A stretch of DNA of 64,000 nt, from NCBI GenBank assembly GCA_900317155.1, contig ONFO01000030.1:1-64000 (forward strand), written 5' to 3'. The notes under the pieces are model-generated. The model saw nothing but the letters and a program-made list of their open reading frames with translations. It had not been told where the DNA came from and made no database searches. The DNA comes from an uncultured Bacteroidales bacterium. Its GTDB lineage: Bacteria > Bacteroidota > Bacteroidia > Bacteroidales > F082. Shown here in pieces: positions 29,768 to 64,000 of this stretch (within the stretch, counting starts at the first letter, position 1; each line of letters starts with the position of its first letter). The position numbers were made by a program, and so were the translations under genes.

Positions 29768-29903
29768 TGTTCAATACATTGAACATATTTAACAAAATAT
29801 TGTTCAGTATATAAAACATTTTTCCTCGTTTTAGGTTTATTTATCACTTAAATGTTCAATATGAAAGACAAATTTCTATTTAAAATGTTTTGTATATTGA
29901 ACA
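29768..29903. promoter_or_regulatory. Four operator-like palindromes before the ATPase gene at 29946
   Basis: Sites at 29768-29785 (TGTTCAATACATTGAACA, a near-perfect dyad), 29801-29818, 29853-29870 and 29886-29903 (TGTTTTGTATATTGAACA) share the pattern TGTTCAnTATATTGAACA. They form two pairs, each spaced 33 bp. The last site covers the -33 box of the promoter (TTG at 29890-29892), so binding there would block transcription. Confidence 0.7.
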
Positions 29904-29945: not shown

Positions 29946-31172
29946 ATGGAAACATTAGTAAGAAGACATCTCAACAGGATGCAGACCGTGAACCTCGATT
30001 TTGTCAGGAACATCATGGACGAAATCGACTGGAACGAGCGGCTTCTAATGATCAAAGGCCAGAAGGGCGTCGGTAAGACAACACTCATGACACAACGCAT
30101 CATGCAAGTGTTTGGCCCAACCAACACCTCAGATGTGCTTTATGTGAGCCTTGATAACATCTATTTTGGCACTCATCATCTGCTGGATTTCATTGAGCAG
30201 TTCCATGCACAAGGAGGAAAATACCTGTTTCTGGACGAAGTGCATAAGTATAAGGGATGGAGCATCGAAATCAAGAACGCATACGATGAGTTTCCCGACA
30301 TGCACTTTGTGCTGAGCGGGTCGTCGTTGGTCAATCTTTCTGACGGGGAGGCCGACCTCTCGCGCCGCTGCATTGCCTATACCTTGCTTGGGCTTTCGTT
30401 CAGAGAATACTTGCGGATGTTCCATCAAAAGGACTTCAAAAGACGGACACTTCAAGAGATCCTTACCAACGGTAATAGCATCTGTGCCGAAGTCAATGCA
30501 CAAATCCGCCCATTGCCGCTTTTTGCTGAGTATTTACGCTATGGCTACTATCCTTTCTTGAAAGAAGGGCAGAACAATTATTATGTTCGTATCGAGAACG
30601 TTGTCAATACCATCATTGAGGTGGAACTGCCACAATTACGGAAACTCGACGTGGGCAATATCAGAAAAGTGAAGTCGTTGTTGGGCATTCTGTCTTCCAA
30701 TGTGCCTTTTGCCCTCGACACCGTCAAACTGGCGACTATGGCGGAGATTTCACGCACCACATTGTTGAATTATCTTCAAATCCTCAGCGAGGCTCGTCTG
30801 ATTCAGTTGTTGTATTCGGATGCAACGAATGTGAAACGACTACAAAAGCCGGACAAGATTTATTTGGAAAATCCCAATATGCTTCATGCCCTTGCCACGA
30901 CACGGGTCAACGAAGGTACAGAGCGCGAAGTGTTTTTCATTAATCAGCTCGCGTCAAGTCATGTTGTGGAATACAGCAAGACTTCAGCGGACTTCACCAT
31001 CGACCATCAATACACGATTGAAGTTGGTGGACGCTCTAAGATTGAAGTTGGTGGACGCTCTAAAGATGGCAAACAGATTGCTGGCGTTTCGAAGAGTTAT
31101 ATCGCTTCCGACGATGAAGAGTATGTGCTTGGTAACAAAATCCCGCTCTGGCTATTTGGCTTTTTGTATTGA
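29946..31172 (+). CDS. AAA_14/DUF4143 family ATPase (1)
   Basis: 408 aa. It has an N-terminal P-loop ATPase with Walker A GQKGVGKTTLM, Walker B KYLFLDEVHKY and sensor-like VLSGSSLVNL. A winged-helix-like middle follows (LATMAEISRTTLLNYLQIL), then a DUF4143 C-terminal domain with a degenerate nuclease-like core (FTIDHQYTIEVGG). This family is abundant in Bacteroidetes and archaea but has no established function. The motif IEVGGRSK is duplicated in tandem (24-bp repeat at 31017-31064). The gene carries its own operator-like array upstream and ends 3 bp from a stray copy of the parE 3' end. Confidence 0.85.
   Translation: METLVRRHLNRMQTVNLDFVRNIMDEIDWNERLLMIKGQKGVGKTTLMTQRIMQVFGPTNTSDVLYVSLDNIYFGTHHLLDFIEQFHAQGGKYLFLDEVHKYKGWSIEIKNAYDEFPDMHFVLSGSSLVNLSDGEADLSRRCIAYTLLGLSFREYLRMFHQKDFKRRTLQEILTNGNSICAEVNAQIRPLPLFAEYLRYGYYPFLKEGQNNYYVRIENVVNTIIEVELPQLRKLDVGNIRKVKSLLGILSSNVPFALDTVKLATMAEISRTTLLNYLQILSEARLIQLLYSDATNVKRLQKPDKIYLENPNMLHALATTRVNEGTEREVFFINQLASSHVVEYSKTSADFTIDHQYTIEVGGRSKIEVGGRSKDGKQIAGVSKSYIASDDEEYVLGNKIPLWLFGFLY
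31017..31064 (+). repeat. In-frame 24-bp tandem duplication in the ATPase gene
   Basis: Two adjacent 24-bp copies (31017-31040 and 31041-31064) differ at one base and encode IEVGGRSK twice. The unit covers the strand carrying the E-V-x-x-x-x-K residues, where PD-(D/E)xK-like domains hold their catalytic Glu and Lys. Confidence 0.9.
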
Positions 31173-31475: not shown

Positions 31476-31552
31476 TCAGACTTCGAGATTTGGCATTGAT
31501 TTGCCGTGATTCTCCAATTCTTTATTCCTTGCTTTACTTCTCGGATAATGGT
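31433..31552 (-). pseudogene. Displaced C-terminal tail of hipA in another frame
   Basis: On the minus strand, one frame away from the hipA reading frame, the DNA encodes TIIREVKQGIKNWR and then ISKSEQERFAQRFEWAII before a stop. This is the usual end of HipA-family kinases. It shows that the hipA gene at 31476 has lost bases just upstream and now reads through the wrong frame. Confidence 0.8.
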
Positions 31553-32627
31553 ACTCGTTTGTATTCGAAGAAATCAACAGACTTTGGGTCGTCAAATTGG
31601 TCGGGTTCAGGTCGTAAGCAGGCGACAGTTGCCAACCTTTTTTACCTAAAAGGAATCCGTGGTTCCTGAAATGGTCGTCATGGTTGCCAATGCAAATGTT
31701 GAATGCCACACGGCGGTACAGTTCTTTCAGCGTGGCACTTGTGTCAGCCACGCCTGTGGGGCCAATGATGACATCCACAATGTCCAGGTAACCGTGTCCT
31801 GTGGAAGCGTTGTCACCGTCTTTGAGTTTGGCCAAAGTCAAGGTAGAAGCGAAATGCCGACGACCATTGTCAGTTCGGTCGAAACGATGTGACAACAATG
31901 TGTGATATTTTACGCCGTCAAGTTTCAACAAACGGGTCTCGGCAACATTGATGCCAACTTTTCTGGCCAACACATGCGCAAAATGCTCCCAAAGAGCAAC
32001 ATCGTAGTCATCGGAGACCGATGGAATCTTGGCGATACACAAATGGCCATTTTCATCCATGACATTGGCTTTAGGTCGAGCACCTCCCAACGATGAACCC
32101 TGGTGGAACAGGTTATCAAGCCATTCTTCACGCATGGGCCGTCCTGATTGCTCATTTCTTTCATATTCATGTGCCATGAAAACGAATTCACAGAGACTGG
32201 TCAATGGCGGTACGCGCATTTCATTCTCCGATGCACCTATGAAAGCGTCATTATGCATGAAACGAAAAGCACCCATCCGTGAAAAGTCATCCAATTGGGT
32301 CAAGTAATCATAGTCGGTAAAAGCCTTGGGGATGCGTTTTTCTTGTTCGGCTTTGATTCTCTCACGCTTGTCAATCAGCCTTTTGCCCCAACGGTCGGGC
32401 ATGGCATCACCAAAACAGCCGAAAATCTCGCCTGATTTGTATTGTTCGCCCGAGAAGTTCATCAAGTCTCCACTTAAAAGGATAGAGCGATTCGAGCGTA
32501 GCCATTCCACATCAAAAGAAAAACCGTATGAAGGCGTTCCTCTAAGCATTTCATGACTTAATGTGCCAACCAAAACAGGGGCATCAAGCCAGTCGAAATC
32601 CGCATATACTTGAAGCCTTTCCATCAT
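31476..32627 (-). CDS. hipA: HipA-family Ser/Thr kinase toxin, frameshifted near the C-terminus
   Basis: 383 aa as read. It has an N-terminal HipA domain (VLVGTLSHE...YGFSFDVEWL), a GARPKA nucleotide-binding loop after SSLG, the catalytic loop NHDDHFRNHGF (about residue 315) and metal-binding SPAYDLNP (about 335). The last ~28 residues are out of frame: the family's usual C-terminal helix is found in another frame at 31433-31552, so roughly 20-30 codons were lost. Intact HipA phosphorylates glutamyl-tRNA synthetase or similar targets to arrest growth. This copy keeps the catalytic residues but probably folds poorly. Its start overlaps the hipB stop (4 bp). Confidence 0.82.
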   Translation of the reverse strand: MMERLQVYADFDWLDAPVLVGTLSHEMLRGTPSYGFSFDVEWLRSNRSILLSGDLMNFSGEQYKSGEIFGCFGDAMPDRWGKRLIDKRERIKAEQEKRIPKAFTDYDYLTQLDDFSRMGAFRFMHNDAFIGASENEMRVPPLTSLCEFVFMAHEYERNEQSGRPMREEWLDNLFHQGSSLGGARPKANVMDENGHLCIAKIPSVSDDYDVALWEHFAHVLARKVGINVAETRLLKLDGVKYHTLLSHRFDRTDNGRRHFASTLTLAKLKDGDNASTGHGYLDIVDVIIGPTGVADTSATLKELYRRVAFNICIGNHDDHFRNHGFLLGKKGWQLSPAYDLNPTNLTTQSLLISSNTNEYHYPRSKARNKELENHGKSMPNLEV

Positions 32628-52902: not shown

Positions 52903-53466
52903 ATGATTGAACATCATCCATTAAAACCGTTCGTTCCCTCAAACGCGAGAGTTTTATTCCTCGGCAGTTTTCCGCCGCCAAAGAAGCGTTGGTGCATGGA
53001 CTTTTTCTACCCCAACTTCATCAACGACCACTGGCGCATCGAAGGGCAAATCTGGTTCGGTGACAAGAACCATTTTGTGGACATCGAGCGCAAATGCTTC
53101 AAAATGAATGAAATCATTACGTTTCTGAACGAGAAAGGCATAGCGCTTTTCGATACAGCCATGGCAGTCAATAGGCTGAAAGACAATGCCTCGGACGCCT
53201 TTTTGGAAATTGTGGAGCATACCGACATTGATGCATTACTGAAACAAATACCGCAATGTCATGCCATTGCCACCACGGGCGAAAAAGCCACCACAGAAGT
53301 ATGCGCTTATTACAATACGAATTCGATTCCTTCTCCTAACGAACAAATCACCCTAAGGGAAGGATTAACACTTTATAGATTACCTTCATCATCACGCGCT
53401 TATCCTTTGTCATTTGACAAAAAGATTGAAGCCTACCGCAGGATGTTCGAGACGGTGTTTACCTAG
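52903..53466 (+). CDS. Uracil-DNA glycosylase family protein
   Basis: 187 aa. The first motif VLFLGSFPPPKKRWCMDFFYPN and the C-terminal RLPSSSRAYP resemble the two active-site motifs of the small UDG superfamily (G-x-x-P... and the substrate-loop LPSPSR-type). It may remove damaged bases or be a non-catalytic relative; substrate is not known. Its 3' end overlaps that of the convergent sirtuin gene by 8 bp. Confidence 0.7.
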   Translation: MIEHHPLKPFVPSNARVLFLGSFPPPKKRWCMDFFYPNFINDHWRIEGQIWFGDKNHFVDIERKCFKMNEIITFLNEKGIALFDTAMAVNRLKDNASDAFLEIVEHTDIDALLKQIPQCHAIATTGEKATTEVCAYYNTNSIPSPNEQITLREGLTLYRLPSSSRAYPLSFDKKIEAYRRMFETVFT

Positions 53467-54211
53467 TCATCAAGGCATCAATCGCAGGCAGTATCTCGCC
53501 TGATTTGCCTTCAAGGTAGATGTCCGTGATGTAGTTCGTATAGGTCGAAGGCTCCATGTTGATTTCGATGATCTTGGCACTGTTGCGCTTGGCGATGCCA
53601 GGGATCATGTTGGCCGGACTGACCTGTCCCGAAGTGCCGATGATGACGAAAGCATCGCAGTTTTCGGCAGCACGCACCGAGCCATAATAGGCGTCCTCGG
53701 GGATGCCCTCGCCGAAGAAGATGAAGTCGGGCTTCATCAGCCCTCCGCACTGAGTACAACGAGGCGGTTCCTCGGTGAGTGTCATGCTCTTGGCATCGAC
53801 CTTATGGCCGCATTTGGTGCAGACGAAGCGCGACATGTTGCCGTGGAACTCATACACCACGCTGTTGCCCGCCACGGTGTGCAGGTCATCGATGTTCTGT
53901 GTGATGACGCTGCTCAAACGGCCTTCCTTCTCCCATTTGGCCAAGACGAGATGCCCAGGATTGGGTTTGATGTCCTTGTTGCTGAAGAAGTTATAGAACA
54001 CCTCGCGGATGATCTTCCACGACTCCTTGGTGTGGCGGTAGTAAAAGTCGATGTCGAGTGAGTTGGGATCATACTGGTTCCAGATGCCGCCCTCGCCACG
54101 GAAAGGTGGGATGCCACTCTCAGCCGAAGTGCCCGCGCCAGTGAAGCCCACGATGTTCTTCGCCTTGGAGAGGATTTCGGCAGCTTGCTTGATTTTTTCG
54201 GTATTGTTCAT
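53459..54211 (-). CDS. cobB: NAD-dependent protein deacylase (SIR2/CobB type)
   Basis: 250 aa. SIR2 motifs are FTGAGTSAESGIPPFRG (NAD site), TQNIDDLHTVAG, catalytic His in YEFHGN, a zinc ribbon (CTKCG and CTQCG) and GTSGQVSPAN. It removes acetyl or longer acyl groups from lysines with NAD as co-substrate. The leader has AAGATTY heptamers. It overlaps the convergent UDG-family gene end by 8 bp, so the two mRNAs are antisense at their ends. Confidence 0.94.
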   Translation of the reverse strand: MNNTEKIKQAAEILSKAKNIVGFTGAGTSAESGIPPFRGEGGIWNQYDPNSLDIDFYYRHTKESWKIIREVFYNFFSNKDIKPNPGHLVLAKWEKEGRLSSVITQNIDDLHTVAGNSVVYEFHGNMSRFVCTKCGHKVDAKSMTLTEEPPRCTQCGGLMKPDFIFFGEGIPEDAYYGSVRAAENCDAFVIIGTSGQVSPANMIPGIAKRNSAKIIEINMEPSTYTNYITDIYLEGKSGEILPAIDALMTR

Positions 54212-55892: not shown

Positions 55893-58700
55893 TTACAACT
55901 TGCTTTTCAATGCTTTACCTGTATAAGATGCCTTGCACTTCACCAAGTCCTCGGGCGTGCCTTCAAAGACAATCTCACCGCCTTTGTTGCCGCTTTCGGG
56001 ACCCAAGTCGATGACCCAGTCCGCCGACTTGATGACATCCATGTTGTGCTCGATGATGATGACACTGTGGCCGTTGGCAATCAGGGCGTTGAACGACTCC
56101 AGCAGCTTGTTCACATCGTGGAAATGCAGACCTGTGGTCGGCTCATCGAAGATGAAGAGCGTGGGCTTCTCCACCTGTCCCTTGATGAGGAAATAAGCTA
56201 ACTTCACGCGCTGGGCCTCGCCGCCCGAAAGCGAACTCGACGACTGCCCGAGTTTGAGGTAACCCAATCCGACCTCCTGCAAGGGCTTCAATCGGTTGAC
56301 AATGCGCCCGACAATGGGAGTCTGCCGCTCAGAGGAGTGTTCAAAGAAGTCGATGGCCTCCTCGATGCTCATGTTGAGGATGTCGGAGATGTGCTTGCCG
56401 TCGTATTTGATCTCCAGTACCTCTTCCTTGAAGCGTGTGCCGTGACAGGCCTCGCAAGGCAGATAGACATCAGCCATGAACTGCATCTCGATCTTTTGCA
56501 CGCCCTCGCCCTCACATTCCTCGCAGCGACCGCCTGGCACATTGAATGAGAAGAAGGCAGGCTTGATGCCACGCAGTTTGGCCAGTTTCTGCTCGGAGAA
56601 CAATGTCCGTATCTCATCATAAGCCTTCAAGTAAGTAGCTGGGTTGGAGCGCGATGACTTTCCGATGGGGTTCTGGTCGATGAACTCGACGGCCTGGATG
56701 AGGCGCAGGTCGCCTTCCAAAGCACCATAGCTGCCACATTTCTCGGCGTTTTCGCCTAACTGCCGTTTCATGGCGGGGTAAAGCACATCCTTCACCAAGG
56801 TCGATTTGCCCGAGCCGCTCACGCCCGTGATGACGGTCATCATGTTGAGCGGGAAACGCACGGTGAGGTTCTTGAGGTTGTTCTGTGTCGCGCCTTTGAT
56901 GACGATGGCGTTGGCGCTCTTGCGTTGGCGGGTGGGCACGGGGATGCTCATCTTGCCCGTGAGGTATTGCGTGGTGAGGCTCTTCTCGCAGTGGACGAGA
57001 TCCTTGATCTCGCCCTCGAACACGACTTCGCCGCCAAAGGCACCTGCCATCGGCCCGATGTCGATGATGTAGTCGGCGGCACGGATAATCTCCTCATCAT
57101 GTTCCACCACGATGACGGTGTTGCCGATGTCGCGAAGGCGTTTCAGCACCTTGATGAGTTGTTCGGTGTCGCGGGAATGTAGGCCGATGCTAGGCTCGTC
57201 CAAGATATAAGTGGAGCCGACCAGACTGCTGCCCAACGAAGTCGCGAGGTTGATGCGCTGCGACTCACCGCCCGAGAGCGTGTTGGAGAGACGGTTCAGG
57301 GTCAGGTAACCCAAGCCCACCTCGATAATGAAATCCAGGCGGTTGTTGATTTCCACGAGTAGGCGAGAGGCGATTTTGCTGTCGGTCTCGTCGAGTTTGA
57401 GGTGGTCGAAGAAGGCCTTCAGCTCGTCCAAGGGCATCAGCACGAGGTCGGTGATGCTCTTGCCGCCCACCTTAACATATTGCGCTTGACGGCGCAGGCG
57501 TGTGCCGTGGCATTCGGGGCAGACCGTCTTGCCGCGGTAGCGCGACAGCATCACGCGGTATTGTATCTTATAGGACTGTGTCTCAACATAGTTGAAGAAG
57601 TCCACTATGCCTTCAAAATACTGGTTGCCGGTCCAGAGGAGGCTCACCTGTTCATCGGTGAGTTCGTAGAACGGCTTGAAGATGGGGATGCCCACCTTGT
57701 CGGCCACACGGATGAGGGCGTCTTTCCACTCGCTCATCTTCTCGCCGCGCCAGCAGGCGATGGCGTTCTCGAAGATCGACAGGCTTTTGTTGGGCACCAC
57801 CAGGTCGGGGTCGATGCCGATGACGCTGCCGAAGCCCTGACAGGTGGGACAGGCGCCGTAGGGGTTGTTGAAGGCGAACATATTGGCCGTGGGCGGCTCG
57901 AAAGTGATGCCGTCGGCCTCGAAACGCGACGAGAAGTCGGCTTCCTTCCGCTCGCCATCGAGTTCGCTAATCACCTGGCAGGTCTCCTTGCCCTCGTAGA
58001 AGGCGGTCTGCACCGAGTCGGAGATGCGCCCGATGGCGTCATCCATGCTCTCGCTGACCTTGATGCGGTCGATGAGCAGCTTCACCTTCTTCTCGCTGAC
58101 CTTTTTCTTCTGGTCGAGGAAATCCTCGATTTTGATGATCTCGCCGTTATATAAAATACGGTAGAAGCCCTGCTGCATGAGGATGTTGAGATGTTCTTCC
58201 AGACTGCGGCCTTCAGGCAGGTGAAGCGGCGCGACGATGTAGGCCGTGCTGCCTGTTGACAGACCGAGGATATGGTTCACCACATCCATCACCTGATGCT
58301 TCTTGACCAGCTTGCCCGAGGCGGGGGAGTAGGTCTTGCCGATGCGGGCGTAGAGGAGTTTCAGGTATTCGTAGATCTCGGTGCTGGTGCCCACGGTGGA
58401 GCGTGGGTTGTGCGAGTTCACCTTCTGTTCGATGGCGATGGCGGGCGAGAGGCCGGTGATGCTTTCCACATCGGGCTTGTTGAGTCGGCCCATGAACTGC
58501 CGTGCATACGAGCTCAAGCTCTCCACATAGCGGCGTTGTCCTTCGGCATAAAGCGTGTCGAACGCCAAGGACGACTTGCCCGATCCCGACAGGCCGGTGA
58601 TGACCACCAGCTTGTTCTTCGGAATCTGCAAACTGATGCTTTTCAGGTTGTTGACCTTCGCGTTGCGGATGGTGATATAGGAAGTTGTTTGCTCTTTCAA
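55893..58700 (-). CDS. uvrA: Excinuclease ABC subunit A
   Basis: 935 aa from a TTG start (58700). Two ABC ATPase halves are seen, each with a Walker A ([34 protein letters not shown]), a signature motif and Walker B, plus zinc fingers (CPTCQ... and CEACHGTRF). It recognises damaged DNA with UvrB in nucleotide excision repair. An in-frame ATG at 58724 lies inside the -7 promoter box (58722-58729), so the TTG, which gives [18 protein letters not shown] and matches known UvrA N-termini, is preferred. Confidence 0.93.
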
Positions 58701-58721
58701 GGTTCGGAAAAATTGAATTTG

Positions 58722-58729
58722 CAAAGGTA
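58722..58729 (-). promoter_or_regulatory. -7 promoter motif of uvrA
   Basis: TACCTTTG on the minus strand. It overlaps the first in-frame ATG (58722-58724), which therefore cannot be the start of this transcript. Confidence 0.55.
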
Positions 58730-58792
58730 CGGAAAAGCGGGGAAATAAGAGAGAGGGAAGAAGAAAATATTAAGAAATCTTCTGCGCCAAGC

Positions 58793-60148
58793 CTATAAGC
58801 AAAACGTCATATAAGGCGGAATGCACACAATGTCGCCTTTCAAAGAAAGGTTCTTTGGATGAATGACATAACAACCTCCAATACGCTCGTGAAATTTTTC
58901 CTTGAATCTTTCAAGCGAGGTGGTCGAGTAGTTCTCGGTTGACTTCACCTCAACAGGGAAAACCTTGTATTTCAATTTGCTATGGTTCGACAAGAGGAAG
59001 TCAATTTCAATGTCGTTGCGGTGCTTTGTTTCGTTGTAATGCGTATAAAAAAACAGCTTGTGACCCGCTGCCACCAGCATCTGTGCGATGGCGTTTTCGT
59101 ATAACATCCCCTCGTTGAGTGAGAGTTTCCCATGCAGGATTTCCCGATACAGTTCGCCATCGGAAACGTCGTTTTCGCTGAAAGCATGGCTGACCAAAAG
59201 TCCAGTGTCGCCCATATAGCACTTCACATAAGTCCTGTCCTCGTTAATGGAAAGCCCAACGTTAGGGTCGGCGCAGTTGAAGCACTCGTTGGCAATCATC
59301 GAATCGGCAAGCCAAAAGAAAGTGTCCTCATACTGCATGAAATCGGAGCCTTCCACTATCTTGTTGAGAACCACCCGCTTTTCGTGTTTGGAAAGCAGAC
59401 CGGGAACCTGGTCATAAATGGCCAGCACTTTTGAACGATATTGGTTACCAATTTTCATAATATCTTCTCGATACAACCGCAAGATGTCGCGCTTTTCCTC
59501 ATCGCATAAGGCAAAATCACGCGAGTTTTCGAGAAACACATCCAAGGGCTTCGGCATACCCCCGACAAGGAGATATTGCCTAAACAGCATCATGGCTTTG
59601 CGGTGCAAATCATTAGTGAGCGGTCGTTCCTTCTCGAAGCACAGCTTAATGTAATCCAGAAGTTGCTCCTCTCCGAAAGCCCAACAAAATTCCTCGAAAT
59701 CAAGTGGATACATCTTTATGCAACGCTCTTCTGAAGGGATAACGATGTCTGCGACATTCTCATGAATGGAAATAAGCGACCCTGTTTCGATATAATCATA
59801 GCGCCCATCTTGCACCAAATACTTCACGGCCTCGCGTGCTCGAGGAAATTTCTGGACTTCGTCAAAAATAATCAGTGACTGCCTTTCGTGCAACTTCACT
59901 TTAAACTCGCTGGAAATAAGCATAAAAAACGTGTCAAGGTCGTTGAGATTGTTCACAAAAGCCTCCTTCACCACATCCCGGGCCTTGGCAAAATCGATAA
60001 GGATATAGCTCTTGTATTCGTTTCGGGCAAACTCTTCCACGATGGTTGACTTTCCGATTCGTCTTGCTCCTTCGACAAGCAAAGCTTTCTGTCCGCCCAT
60101 CCTTTTCCATTCAAGGAACTTTTTGTATATCTTTCTCTTGAAAATCAT
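58793..60148 (-). CDS. AAA_14/DUF4143 family ATPase (2)
   Basis: 451 aa from MIFKRKIYKKFLEWKRMGGQ; a longer frame to 60256 runs through the repeat array and is rejected. Walker A GARRIGKSTIV, Walker B LIIFDEVQKF and TGSLISIHENV are followed by DUF4143 with the nuclease-like core IEIDFLLS and FPVEVKSTENY. The family is often called 'ATP-binding protein' with no agreed role. The gene has four direct repeats exactly 34 bp apart in its promoter region (60165-60281). Confidence 0.86.
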   Translation of the reverse strand: MIFKRKIYKKFLEWKRMGGQKALLVEGARRIGKSTIVEEFARNEYKSYILIDFAKARDVVKEAFVNNLNDLDTFFMLISSEFKVKLHERQSLIIFDEVQKFPRAREAVKYLVQDGRYDYIETGSLISIHENVADIVIPSEERCIKMYPLDFEEFCWAFGEEQLLDYIKLCFEKERPLTNDLHRKAMMLFRQYLLVGGMPKPLDVFLENSRDFALCDEEKRDILRLYREDIMKIGNQYRSKVLAIYDQVPGLLSKHEKRVVLNKIVEGSDFMQYEDTFFWLADSMIANECFNCADPNVGLSINEDRTYVKCYMGDTGLLVSHAFSENDVSDGELYREILHGKLSLNEGMLYENAIAQMLVAAGHKLFFYTHYNETKHRNDIEIDFLLSNHSKLKYKVFPVEVKSTENYSTTSLERFKEKFHERIGGCYVIHPKNLSLKGDIVCIPPYMTFCL

Positions 60149-60164
60149 ATAGTTATAATTTAAT

Positions 60165-60281
60165 TTCCGATAGTACGCATGTGCAAAGATATATAAAATT
60201 CCGATAATACGCACCTTTTGATAATAAATGTTTTCCGATGGTGCGCAGGTATTCAATTACTTTAAATTCCGATAATGCGCA
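60165..60281. promoter_or_regulatory. Four direct repeats at exact 34-bp period before ATPase 2
   Basis: Copies of TTCCGATARTRCGCA (R = A/G) start at 60165, 60199, 60233 and 60267, each 34 bp apart, with 19-bp A/T-rich spacers of different sequence. The -7 motif TATCTTTG (minus strand, 60184-60191) lies in the first spacer, so copies 1 and 2 flank the transcription start. They look like operator sites for one protein repeated about every three helical turns. Confidence 0.8.
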
Positions 60282-60340
60282 GGTGGAAAAGGGATTTAGG
60301 TCGCAAAATATGATGAAATATGCTGACTGTTACGAAAACT

Positions 60341-60442
60341 TTATTGTCCATACACCACAAAAACCATCAAAACACGAATTTTGTTGTACATAGACAATAA
60401 AATCATAAAAATTTCAATTTTTGTTGTCCATAAACAATAAAA
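60341..60442. promoter_or_regulatory. Three repeats at exact 40-bp period before ATPase 3
   Basis: 22-bp copies starting at 60341, 60381 and 60421 fit TTRTTGTNCATANACMAYAA, with weak dyad symmetry (TTGTTGT/ACAATAA). The spacers are 18 bp. The last copy contains the -33 TTG (60424-60426), and the -7 box TATATTTG follows at 60446-60453. Confidence 0.8.
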
Positions 60443-60445
60443 TTG

Positions 60446-60453
60446 TATATTTG
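60446..60453 (+). promoter_or_regulatory. -7 promoter motif of ATPase 3
   Basis: TATATTTG, 19 nt after TTG at 60424-60426 and 12 nt before the ATG at 60466. Confidence 0.6.
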
Positions 60454-60465
60454 CAGCGAAAAACT

Positions 60466-61680
60466 ATGCTTATGGACTTGATTTCAAGAAATTACTACGC
60501 CGAAAAAGTCGATGGTTGGTTGGGAAAAGGACGTGTTATCGTGCTGGTTGGACAACGTCGCATCGGGAAAAGTTATGTGCTGAAAGACTTTGTGTTGCGG
60601 CATAAAAACGAACCTGACGCCAATGTCATCTATATCGACAAAGAAAAAAAGGAGTTCGATGCCATCAAGGATTACACCACCTTGAACGAATACATCGATG
60701 CACGGTTCGCCATCGGAAGGCAAAATTATATCCTCATCGACGAGGTACAGGACATTGCCGAATGGGAACGCTCGGTGAGGAGTTACCGCACCGAGGAACG
60801 TACCGACATTATCATCACTGGCAGCAATGCAAAAATGCTTTCTTCTGATTTAAGTACTTTGCTGTCAGGGCGTTATCAAGAAATCCACATCCACGGACTA
60901 TCCTATTCCGAGTTTCTGGTTTTTCATAACTTGGAGGATAACGAAGGCTCCTTATATAAGTATTTGGATTACGGTGGTTTGCCTGGGCTGCGTCAAATCG
61001 GATTGGAGAGCGAGGAACGCATCCATGACTATTTGCAAAGTGTGTTGAACACGGTCGTACTGAAGGATATCATCGAACGACACAACATTCGTAACGTAAC
61101 GTTTCTGAACAAGTTACTCTTGTTCTTGGCTGACAATACGGGTAAACCTATCTCGGCAAACAACATCAGCAATTACATGAAAAGCCATGGCACGACGGTT
61201 TCCTCCAACATCGTCTTGGACTACAGTTCATTTTTTGAGGAAACTTATCTGTTGAAATGTGTGCCACGCTACGACATACACGGGAAGAAACTGCTCGAAA
61301 CGAATGGTAAGTATTACTTCGAGGATATCGGCTTGCGAAATCTGCTTTCTGAAAACACCCAACGCGAGAAAGACATCGAAAAAGTTCTTGAAAATGTGGT
61401 GTATCAGCAATTGCTTCGCATGGGTTATGAAGTTAAGGTAGGGCTGTTACAGGCCGGTGAGGTGGATTTTGTCTGCTCGAAAAGGAAACAGCAGGTCTAT
61501 GTGCAAGTGTGCTATCTGATTGCCACGGAAGAGACGGAGGAACGGGAGTTTGGCGTTTTAAGGCGCATTGCAGACAACCATCCGAAATATGTGATTTCCA
61601 TGTCGCCTTTGGTGAAACGTGATAACATCGATGGCATTATTCATCTCGGTCTGCGCGAATTTCTACTGAATGGTTTTTGA
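60466..61680 (+). CDS. AAA_14/DUF4143 family ATPase (3)
   Basis: 404 aa from MLMDLISRNYYAEKVDGW; an upstream frame start (60421) lies inside the repeat array and before the promoter. Walker A GQRRIGKSYVLKDF, Walker B YILIDEVQDIAEW and IIITGSNAKML lead into the winged-helix and DUF4143 domain, with the weak nuclease-like core EVDFVCSKRKQQVYVQVCY. The catalytic Lys of other members is not obvious, so nuclease function may be lost. It is transcribed divergently from ATPase 2. Confidence 0.86.
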   Translation: MLMDLISRNYYAEKVDGWLGKGRVIVLVGQRRIGKSYVLKDFVLRHKNEPDANVIYIDKEKKEFDAIKDYTTLNEYIDARFAIGRQNYILIDEVQDIAEWERSVRSYRTEERTDIIITGSNAKMLSSDLSTLLSGRYQEIHIHGLSYSEFLVFHNLEDNEGSLYKYLDYGGLPGLRQIGLESEERIHDYLQSVLNTVVLKDIIERHNIRNVTFLNKLLLFLADNTGKPISANNISNYMKSHGTTVSSNIVLDYSSFFEETYLLKCVPRYDIHGKKLLETNGKYYFEDIGLRNLLSENTQREKDIEKVLENVVYQQLLRMGYEVKVGLLQAGEVDFVCSKRKQQVYVQVCYLIATEETEEREFGVLRRIADNHPKYVISMSPLVKRDNIDGIIHLGLREFLLNGF

Positions 61681-61766
61681 GTGGACTCTCTACTCATTTT
61701 CCCAATAATTATTGTCCCCAAAACGAAAAAAAAATACATTTTTTGCTTGCAAATTCAAAAAATCCG

Positions 61767-61774
61767 TATCTTTG
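61767..61774 (+). promoter_or_regulatory. Promoter of the ECF sigma factor gene
   Basis: TATCTTTG at 61767-61774 with TTG at 61747-61749 (17-nt spacing) or TTTG at 61742-61745 (21 nt). The leader to the ATG at 61880 is about 105 nt. Confidence 0.6.
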
Positions 61775-61879
61775 CGGTGTAAAAATTCACTAACTAATCA
61801 ATAGGAGAGACGCTATCGAAAGATCTATACCCTTTATTAACAAGCACTTACGTTGAGTGCACAAAGAAAGGGGGACCTG

Positions 61880-62467
61880 ATGTCCAACATAGTGAAAAGC
61901 GACAAAGAGCTGATTGAACGCTACCAGGATGGTGATGTTCACAGTTTTGAATTATTGATTGGTAGATACCAGAAACAAGTTTATTCCTACATACTCACGC
62001 TAGTGAAAGACAAGCAGTTGGCTGACGATGTCTTTCAGGATACCTTCGTGAAGGTGATCCAGACCATCAAGTCGAAGGGCTACAAGGACGACGGACGTTT
62101 CGTGCAGTTTGCCATGCGCATCGCCCACAACCTTGTCATCGACCATTTCCGCAAGGAGAACCGCATTCCCACGGTGGAGTCGTCGAGCGAGGACTACAAC
62201 TACATTGACAACGTGCCGATTACCGACCATTCCGTCGAACAGGGCATGATCGTCGACCAGGTCCACAGCGACTTGCACCGTATGATCGCCTTCTTGCCCG
62301 ACGAGCAGCGCGAGGTGCTGCGGATGCGTATCTTCGACGACATGAGCTTCAAGGACATCGCCGACATCACCAACGTGAGCATCAACACGGCGTTGGGCCG
62401 CATGCGCTACGCCTTGATCAACTTGCGTAAGATGATGGTGGCCAATAATATGACCCTCACGTATTGA
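61880..62467 (+). CDS. ECF-type RNA polymerase sigma factor
   Basis: 195 aa from MSNIVKSDKELIERYQDGD; a TTG 9 codons upstream is also open. Sigma-70 region 2 (YILTLVKDKQLADDVFQDTF) and region 4 (LPDEQREVLRMRIFDDMSFKDIADIT) are clear, typical of extracytoplasmic-function sigma factors. No anti-sigma factor gene is adjacent. A small conserved-looking protein gene (62653-62850) follows. A long tandem-unit palindrome begins 8 nt after its stop codon. Confidence 0.9.
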   Translation: MSNIVKSDKELIERYQDGDVHSFELLIGRYQKQVYSYILTLVKDKQLADDVFQDTFVKVIQTIKSKGYKDDGRFVQFAMRIAHNLVIDHFRKENRIPTVESSSEDYNYIDNVPITDHSVEQGMIVDQVHSDLHRMIAFLPDEQREVLRMRIFDDMSFKDIADITNVSINTALGRMRYALINLRKMMVANNMTLTY

Positions 62468-62938: not shown

Positions 62939-64000
62939 TTATTGGTAAGTACCCCAATCTTTCCAAGAAACATAATCTATCCCGTTTATGTTACAGGAGA
63001 GGTCGCCTAAATAGAAAACTGCGCCACGACTTCCGTCTTCGCCACGAAGTGTAAGATAGTCTCGGGTGTTTTTCGAAAGCTTTTGTTCGGCCTCGATAGT
63101 ACTCTTTATTTCTATGGCGAAAGTATGTTTCCAGTCGGCAATAATATCAACCTCAAAGCCTTTCAGGTCACGGTAATACGTCAAATTAGGTTGCTTGCCG
63201 TGATTGAGTCTGGCTTTTAACAACTCACCGAGCGCAAAAGTCTCCACGATGGCTCCTTTGTTTGGGTGCAGAATTAGTTCTTCCACCGTCTCAATCCGCA
63301 GCAAATGACAAAGCAGCCCCGAATCCATGAAATACATTTTTGGGGTTTTGACTAATGTCTTTCCAAGGTTTTGACAGTCAGGTTCTAAGAAATGGATTAG
63401 AAACGATGATTCCAAGATAGAGAGCCATTGTTTTACGGTTGGAGCGGATACGCCGATGCCCCGGGCAATGCTATCCATCGAGAGCATTTGACCGCTATAA
63501 ATGGCGCAAATCTGTATGAACTTCTTGAACACAGACAAATTGCTATAATTGATTTGGCCTTCAACATCCAAATCGAGGTAGGTGTCCACATAACTGTTGA
63601 ACCAATCGTCTAATGTGAAATGTTTATCTGGGTCGCGCAAAGGTGGATAAAAACCTTTGAAAATAGCTTCATATACGTTGCTATCCAACAAGTTGTTGTG
63701 TTTTAATTCCTCGATGGAGAAAGGAAGCAATTTCAGGAAAGCTGCACGTCCAGCCAAAGAATCGGTCATGTTTTGCTTCAGGTTGAATTGGTTGGAACCC
63801 GTAAGAATGAACTTTCCGGGTGTATAAACCCCTTGATCCACATAATATTTGACCGCATCAAAAATCTCGGGTACCTTTTGGGCCTCGTCGATGATGGCGC
63901 CATTAGGGAAGGCCAATAGGAAGTCCATCGGATTGGCGGCAGCCATTTCCCGGAAAGCCTTGTCGTCAAACGAAACATATCGTTTTTCAGGAAAAGCCAT
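62939..64000 (-). CDS. AAA_14/DUF4143 family ATPase (4), cut by the window edge
   Basis: 353 aa visible; the N-terminus with Walker A lies beyond 64000. Walker B GAIIDEAQKV, ILTGSNQFNLKQNMTDSLAG and the DUF4143 core FEVDIIADWKHTFAIEIKS (a full D-x-E-x-K-like set) are seen. The ATG at the window edge may be internal. Its upstream DNA is not visible, so the presence of a repeat array cannot be tested here. Confidence 0.85.
   Translation of the reverse strand: MAFPEKRYVSFDDKAFREMAAANPMDFLLAFPNGAIIDEAQKVPEIFDAVKYYVDQGVYTPGKFILTGSNQFNLKQNMTDSLAGRAAFLKLLPFSIEELKHNNLLDSNVYEAIFKGFYPPLRDPDKHFTLDDWFNSYVDTYLDLDVEGQINYSNLSVFKKFIQICAIYSGQMLSMDSIARGIGVSAPTVKQWLSILESSFLIHFLEPDCQNLGKTLVKTPKMYFMDSGLLCHLLRIETVEELILHPNKGAIVETFALGELLKARLNHGKQPNLTYYRDLKGFEVDIIADWKHTFAIEIKSTIEAEQKLSKNTRDYLTLRGEDGSRGAVFYLGDLSCNINGIDYVSWKDWGTYQ

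Follow-up and report, generated by a model that had tools for sequence, protein, structure and literature searches.

We propose that a STAND-like ATPase-nuclease likely represses itself through a private array of short repeated sites within its own promoter. This reading comes from a 64-kb stretch of an uncultured Bacteroidales genome, called here the window (G000:C25:1-64000, where G000 is the 3.8-Mb genome holding it), in which four genes of the AAA_14/DUF4143 family were found by Pfam; as judged from sequence, each family protein probably reads and controls its own gene. The features that carry the proposal, shown by sequence, are the array itself, its privacy (three motifs), a clade-specific pitch, a core recurring across phyla, co-variation of the array motif with segments of the protein, and transfer of the gene together with its array. 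The four genes are L025 (minus strand, 58796..60148, 451 aa, ATG at 60148-60146 and stop codon at 58793-58795; Pfam, PADLOC, AlphaFold), L004 (plus strand, 60472..61677, 402 aa, with an alternative ATG at 60466; Pfam, PADLOC), L012 (plus strand, 29946..31169, 408 aa; Pfam) and L013 (minus strand, 62942..64000), which is cut by the window edge and starts at G000:C25:64105.

Four 18-bp sites at a spacing of exactly 34 bp occupy the L025 promoter on the minus strand: copy 1, nearest the start codon, at 60165..60182 (ACATGCGTACTATCGGAA), copy 2 at 60199..60216 (AGGTGCGTATTATCGGAA), copy 3 at 60233..60250 (ACCTGCGCACCATCGGAA) and copy 4 at 60267..60284 (ACCTGCGCATTATCGGAA). Upstream of L004, three dyadic sites lie on the plus strand at exactly 40 bp spacing, at 60341..60362 (dyad TTATTGTCCATACACCACAAAA), 60381..60402 (TTGTTGTACATAGACAATAAAA) and 60421..60442 (TTGTTGTCCATAAACAATAAAA). 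Arrays were scored as three copies of a 15-mer at any spacing from 18 to 60 bp, using thresholds of at least 38 and, at the lower level, at least 34; the L025 array scored 39 and the L004 array 38, versus bests of 31 and 33 from 300 dinucleotide shuffles. L013, read beyond the window edge, has four copies at 22-23 bp, 52-119 bp upstream of its start, with a score of 38 versus 33 for the best of 300 shuffles. L012 has four copies of an 18-bp dyad (TGTTCAATAnATTGAACA type) on the plus strand at 29768..29785 (TGTTCAATACATTGAACA), 29801..29818, 29853..29870 (weak) and 29886..29903, separated by gaps of 33, 52 and 33; as direct repeats these scored 28, which was not above shuffles (p=0.36), and the count of six dyad sites versus 0.47 expected (p=0.001) was obtained with a consensus derived from the same DNA. 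An earlier note on this DNA had described regular repeats, 33-40 bp apart, at all visible promoters of the family. This was borne out for L025 and L004 and was weaker for L012, and the spacing did not extend to the edge-cut L013. Tandem Repeats Finder detected none of the window arrays because only their cores are alike.

The frequency of arrays was assessed within the genome holding the window, where 30 loci were taken from 48 AAA_14 matches (18 weaker matches were left out) and one locus, L030, was excluded as non-family. A score of at least 38 was reached by 18 of the remaining 29 family genes, versus 6 of 345 control genes, three of these six being divergent neighbours that share the array of a family gene; the controls were taken from the window together with 280 kb of contig C24 and 120 kb of contig C44, in all 464 kb of this genome. 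A second control comprised 356 open reading frames in loci of relatives, where 16 reached at least 34; on inspection ten were family genes or duplicates and one was a divergent neighbour, leaving 5. The over-representation for which the earlier note proposed a test is present, and arrays are rare rather than equally common upstream of unrelated genes. Extension of the array rule to the DUF234 sister ATPases of related genomes was rejected, as 0 of 13 scorable genes had an array (21 loci; some genes near-identical). Few control promoters had a regular array; one such case is at about 62830-63150 of contig C44, where a 15-bp repeat occurs three times without mismatch, at intervals of 51-52 bp, between divergent reading frames, one of them carbonic-anhydrase-like by eye. 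In Bifidobacterium jacchi (L295, 4167-5571), an AAA ATPase gene of another kind, located close to a family gene, has three dyads (TGATTTATCAAATCA type) 30 bp apart.

Spacing is a property of the clade, being 32-34 bp, 39-41 bp or 22-23 bp. We collected 304 distinct members (317 before removal of duplicates), including 80 stretches chosen from several hundred listed places; the chosen stretches were mostly those closest to the window proteins, so the sample is biased to L025-, L004- and L012-like genes. Without a score cut, the best spacing was 32-34 bp for 139/156 L025-like and 35/51 L012-like genes (controls, 33/345), and 39-41 bp for 28/53 L004-like genes (controls, 17/345); a spacing of 22-23 bp was seen in a few other family genes. 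Scores of at least 34 were reached by 121/156 L025-like, 12/53 L004-like and 16/51 L012-like genes, and by 158/292 members over all listed clades. Arrays are not universal. When genome contigs were searched with the L025 alignment, the 80 best loci (part of the 304) gave scores of at least 34 in 60/86 scorable members and 32-34 bp spacing in 73/86. The corresponding values in viral contigs were 13/29 and 19/29. Only 38 family relatives were found in viral contigs and 13 phage records had a match, so the family does not look mainly phage-borne; the idea of phage decoys was dropped when viral contigs, scanned twice for exact motifs, yielded 0 matches in one scan and in the other 1 match, which lay inside a predicted reading frame.

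The arrays extend to other phyla. Five genomes picked for holding an L025 relative (Treponema, Spirochaetales, Holdemania, Bifidobacterium and Ornithospirochaeta matches; 30 loci listed) had arrays in 8/24 scorable genes, and gaps in this set were 22-23 bp (6), 32-34 bp (7) and 39-41 bp (4). Among L025-like proteins of other phyla (56-70% identical; Spirochaetota, Bacillota or related), arrays scoring at least 34 were present in 14/24 scorable cases, with TGCG in the same register in 12 of these 14, the thirteenth being one base off, and a spacing of 32-35 bp. A neighbouring subclade has a CTTGnnnnnGTG-type skeleton at 33-34 bp in records of several phyla.

As far as genome-wide matching can tell, the repeated sites are private to their own promoters, this having been assessed for three motifs. 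With 0 mismatches, the L025 pattern matched only its own four promoter sites in the 3.8-Mb genome, and it had no match at 1 mismatch. The L003 motif was exact only at its own four sites, with no match at 1-2 mismatches genome-wide, and the L004 motif at 0-1 mismatch was confined to its own three sites. The earlier idea of a shared design with unshared sequence thus stands for these three repeats within the genome, and needs restricting for the clade skeletons (TGCG or CTTGnnnnnGTG), which recur across phyla. Selection for orthogonality inside one genome was considered and not retained, as motif similarity at matched protein identity was equal within and between genomes; for clade-1 arrays with a known genome, pairs reaching 65% identity numbered 0/148 within genomes versus 40/1283 between genomes, which is a hint only. 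The 29 members examined in G000 are at most 61% identical to each other, whereas L025, L004 and L012 have 94-98% identical orthologues in other genomes. This mutual dissimilarity could possibly represent exclusion of like specificities.

The domain plan described in the earlier note, an ATPase followed by a winged-helix-like middle and a PD-(D/E)xK-like end, was recovered in the AlphaFold model of L025 (predicted local distance difference test score, pLDDT, 90), which has an AAA core, a winged helix-turn-helix and a nuclease domain; the order of AAA core and winged helix matches the STAND/SSO1545-type arrangement at fold level only. The protein reference used (58796-60151) has one extra N-terminal residue, so that model residue numbers are +1 relative to ATG-based numbering. 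By model secondary structure the winged helix-turn-helix covers residues 236-313 (minus strand, 59213..59446), its third helix being residues 271-283 (59303-59341); the C-terminal PD-(D/E)xK-type part (minus strand, 58796..59212) is assigned from conserved residues and the model. An E...ExD...ExK set is present in the L025 clade, where E352, E382 and E401 are invariant and D384 and K403 occur in at least 90% of 49 sequences. The L004 clade (29 sequences) lacks ExK and the PD-(D/E)xK set, with Q345-V-x-Y in its place; where the L025 clade has ExK, the L004-like nuclease domain contains Y343-V-Q345-V-x-Y, with a Y that is invariant and a Q that is nearly so. Both AAA_14 and DUF4143 exceeded the Pfam gathering score in three of the four window proteins, the DUF4143 match of L012 being below the cut-off (24.9 versus 28.1 bits). 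PDC-S01 profiles of PADLOC matched all four, nearly at full length for L004 (E=2.5e-136) and L025 (E=2.6e-105), and at E=1.4e-77 for the edge-cut L013 and E=1.9e-28 for L012. By profile, then, the window family corresponds to PADLOC PDC-S01, an abundant unvalidated defence candidate. A sequence search of solved structures with the L004 protein as query gave 0 matches, and an NCBIfam search gave a single weak match far below the cut-off.

Within clade-1 arrays the copies agree at 0.84-0.98 in 15 core columns (selected by the score itself), whereas most spacer columns agree at 0.32-0.46, with intermediate values at the core edges; cores alike with divergent spacers argue that the units are not slipped tandem copies. 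For 28 orthologue pairs, core identity was 0.90 versus 0.56 for spacers, and of 90 differing core columns 9 had changed in all copies together. Motif similarity was 0.83-0.85 above 80% protein identity and 0.25-0.33 below 55%, against a reverse-complement background of 0.21-0.25.

On this sequence evidence, motif similarity follows a winged-helix segment and part of the nuclease and does not follow the ATPase. In a matrix regression of 114 arrays (1450 pairs) beta was 0.20 for the winged helix (p 0.009), and there was barely any signal for the ATPase (beta 0.06, p 0.045) or the linker (0.03, p 0.15). Within the L025 clade, partial r peaked at winged-helix residues 255-270, with a value of 0.29 that rose to 0.33 when pairs were limited to those above 55% identity (max-corrected p 0.001); for residues 271-284 it was 0.15-0.19 (corrected p 0.10 and 0.04). 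Nuclease segments 365-412 gave 0.19-0.23 (corrected p 0.01 and 0.001), a signal lost after correction in closer pairs, and no ATPase segment survived correction in this segment-wise analysis. Co-variation at segment level appears weaker in the other two clades: for L004 (19 arrays) the highest r is that of a nuclease segment (0.27, corrected p 0.03), helix 2 of the winged helix being next (0.23, p 0.09), and for L012 (25 arrays, without structure model or domain assignment) segments 241-262, 291-320 and 361-389 lead (r 0.20-0.22, p 0.03-0.05). The earlier note had suggested that each protein recognises its own sites and had proposed a test for co-variation of the repeat with the middle-domain helix; such co-variation holds by segments, as described, and fails residue by residue. 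It is from this co-variation that we infer the own product to be the molecule that would bind the array and repress.

The promoter layout was compared with the arrays. The L025 promoter has a putative Bacteroidota-type -7 box (TATCTTTGC) on the minus strand at 60183..60191, between array copies 1 and 2, and L004 has a putative -7 box (TATATTTG, by sequence) on the plus strand at 60446..60453. Both were labelled using TAnnTTTG, which we take to be the consensus of the Bacteroidota -7 box, and copy 3 of the L004 array presumably lies over the expected -33 region. Arrays of the L025-like clade were surveyed in the window genome and its relatives (loci up to L250); of 64 such arrays, 56 had a TAnnTTTGC box within 90 bp of the start. 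The box began at unit phase 16-31, outside the core, in 47/56 (p 5e-8, the phase range being picked post hoc) and never at phase 0-8. Two to four array copies lay upstream of the box in 55/56, and 25/56 had copies downstream too, as in L025. This layout would suit occlusion of the -33 region and of the transcription start, and activation would fit as well.

Several results weigh against self-repression by a dedicated array. No clear array was seen for 11 of the 29 own-genome members, clade 11 was the same as controls (2/16 at a score of at least 34, p=0.58), and 10 of the 24 scorable L025-like proteins of other phyla fell below the array score. The L025 pattern has 44 two-mismatch matches genome-wide versus 23 for a reversed control pattern, and two of the 44 sit in the array of another family gene, L005. 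Nuclease beta (0.43, p 0.0005) exceeded that of the whole winged helix in the matrix regression, so that the reading part of the protein is not pinned down. Mutual information between residues and bases, calculated with average product correction (APC) for 43 non-redundant group-II sequences, was not enriched in the winged helix, whose residues took part in 8 of the top 40 pairs versus 8.6 expected; the claim of a residue-level recognition code was dropped on this result. The permutation p-values ignore tree structure and are rough, the contrast between segments being the safer evidence. Lastly, 31 of the 56 promoters have no copy downstream of the -7 box, an arrangement that would also suit activation, and in Segatella copri DSM 18205 the three copies are all downstream of the box, between a TATCTTTGC sequence and the start codon.

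The 31 promoters with copies solely upstream are what would be expected if the protein were a ligand-bound STAND activator (MalT/IniR-like) that oligomerises on the array upstream of the promoter and switches itself on. The third-ranked Foldseek match, 8bob, is an entry on maltose-system regulation (the identity of the matched chain was unchecked), and a mycobacterial ATPase with an SSO1545-like domain is needed to induce its target operon, according to PMC5760070. Against self-activation are the copies found also downstream of the box in 25/56 promoters and the wholly downstream array of S. copri, and we consider it rather unlikely.

Self-repression must also be compared with a reading in which the array is the end or address of a mobile single-gene cassette acted on by the ATPase-nuclease, with regulation secondary; the two are compatible in part. 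Boundaries of homology between relatives in different contexts were determined for 103 pairs of 80-99.5% identical proteins. On the right, DNA homology ended inside the available flank in 86 pairs; in 67 of these the end was no more than 12 bp from the stop codon (43 independent clusters). The left boundary fell inside the flank in 87 pairs, 31 of which had arrays in both members; here the median was 7 bp upstream of the first repeat, and in 15/31 pairs the boundary was no farther than 18 bp upstream or 5 bp downstream of it. Pairs with at least 90% DNA identity were examined separately because neutral decay cannot hide flanks there: the right boundary held (7/8 within 7 bp), and the left was loose, its 7 values being scattered between 280 bp upstream and 145 bp downstream of the first repeat. 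That the array and the gene are transferred as a unit is thus well supported by the sequence comparisons.

L025 and L004 lie in a slot between uvrA and a sigma-factor gene that holds different cassettes, or none, in related genomes. The uvrA-side flank (58683..58775) is 96-97% identical to that of relatives L334, L337 and L341, where another family gene is present and homology to G000 stops at the start of its array; the sigma-factor-side flank (plus strand, 61690..62465) adjoins uvrA in relative L345 (genome G111) with no family gene between. Sixty genomes were searched, and among the 30 loci listed (G000 included) a family gene lay within 1.5 kb of uvrA in 8, 15 had the sigma-factor flank but no family gene, and 7 had neither. 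In L332, L004 adjoins uvrA and L025 is absent. The L337 array upstream of uvrA (genome G174) is longer than those of L334 and L341 by one 33-bp unit, a near-exact repeat, and copy number appears to change here by unit duplication.

These boundaries, the contents of the slot and the co-variation of part of the nuclease with the motif would suit a mobile cassette, and plain transfer of a gene with its promoter would give the same pattern. The end of a transposon would require a second operator 3' of the gene; this idea was rejected, such sites being absent in nearly all loci scanned. For none of 124 genes did the DNA within 60 bp of the stop codon contain a site matching as well as the weakest of the gene's own copies; in 12.9% of the 124 the best downstream match outscored shuffles at p<=0.05 (near chance for 20 shuffles), and a looser scan gave extra sites in 4/128 loci, one of them low-complexity. 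One family gene of G111 (L361, 953-2480; contig G111:C23) with three exact motif copies upstream does have two exact copies just past its stop codon, 34 bp apart in the same orientation, which counts for mobility; its orthologue L362 in genome G143 has none there. No transposase, integrase or other recombinase domain was found by Pfam in the four window proteins (neighbours were not scanned), and nearly all loci scanned lack a motif copy at the 3' end; a transposon-like element would have a recombinase domain and two defined ends with recognition sites. Amplification is not apparent either, the 29 own-genome members being at most 61% identical, and the left boundary is imprecise in the closest pairs. 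We consider the mobile cassette an unlikely primary explanation. A bolder combination, slightly less probable again, would have the array serve both as operator and as self-address, read by winged helix and nuclease together, with array plus reading frame forming a minimal mobile single-gene cassette and the resident copy excluding or cutting newcomers of like specificity; such an incompatibility system would maintain dozens of orthogonal specificities per genome.

The arrays could instead be read by a separate host protein, as regulators of defence genes are often encoded outside them. The 18 arrays of one genome would demand many such readers, and the core follows the ATPase across phyla together with its predicted DNA-facing segments; recurrence of the TGCG core with the protein argues against a host-specific reader, which we regard as very improbable. 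Chance or low-complexity repeats, suggested by the A/T-rich promoters, the weak scores in some clades and the L012 direct repeats, are extremely improbable, since neither dinucleotide shuffles nor 345 control promoters reproduced the arrays and spacing is clade-specific; for the L025-like clade this explanation is already refuted.

Self-repression through the private array is the reading we retain, and it would operate as follows. The family protein, comprising a STAND-like AAA ATPase, a winged helix and a PD-(D/E)xK-type nuclease domain, would be the reader of its own array. Protein units would bind the array copies along a single face of the helix and at regular intervals: every 33-34 bp, or about 3 turns, in the L025 clade, with 40-bp dyads in the L004 clade and 22-23 bp in a third group. 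The bound units would cover the promoter and keep expression low. The protein would leave the array when its ATP or ligand state changes, or when a trigger, infection for example, displaces it; expression would then rise and the ATPase-nuclease could act. What we infer here is that the protein binds directly, that its effect is repression and not activation, that ATP exerts control, that there is a trigger, and that the action is directed against phages. Two other window genes were noted in passing, a HipA-like gene (31476-32627) near the L012 ATPase and a Sir2-family gene (53459-54211).

PDC-S01 has been described as the fourth most common defence across all prokaryotes, validation being pending for most such candidates (PMC12988326), and as the most frequent individual locus in rumen genomes (PMC13356809). 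The portions of these two papers accessible to us describe no mechanism for it and do not mention promoter arrays, private operators or co-variation, and no description of promoter arrays for the family was found in a literature search limited to open-licence papers. For one of the most abundant prokaryotic defence candidates, a private operator readable from sequence would offer a predicted DNA target, an assayable promoter and a route to the trigger for many members. The design recurs across phyla while the array sequence changes, and the family may amount to a naturally occurring set of orthogonal self-regulators that possibly share a recognition code in the winged helix. In Thermus, a gene with AAA 14 and DUF4143 motifs was up 6.6-fold in a plasmid-bearing wild type (PMC4406477). 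This fits an inducible gene and proves nothing on arrays. We take the family to be covered by COG1373. That group of predicted AAA+ ATPases is among the genes shared by transfer in a gut-microbiota survey (PMC10782964).

Among known systems, the Orc1/Cdc6 and ORC initiators share the AAA plus winged-helix plan, and 2qby, bound to origin DNA, was the second-ranked Foldseek match. Replication origin boxes are likewise repeated, but the family arrays seen lie in the genes' own promoters and differ between paralogues. STAND regulators of the MalT/IniR type resemble the family as NTPase regulators of transcription (8bob, above); they have another C-terminal DNA-binding domain and act on other operons, whereas in the family proteins a nuclease follows. 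Matches to the archaeal SSO1545/PABY2304 ATPases and to STAND proteins such as CED-4 and the plant NLRs hardly cover the nuclease part, and none of these is known to have a DNA array. The controller (C) proteins of restriction-modification systems have self-operators in direct-repeat form over a defence promoter. The closest regulatory parallel is RptR: this dedicated 9-kDa repressor recognises 6-bp palindromes and uses three direct repeats to repress its own promoter, in a defence island (PMC12255303). The likeness is a self-operator made of direct repeats over a defence promoter. The difference is that here the large ATPase-nuclease itself would be the regulator, acting at sites of 15-20 bp placed 33-40 bp apart, and the simplest reading of the arrays is a candidate defence protein that regulates itself.

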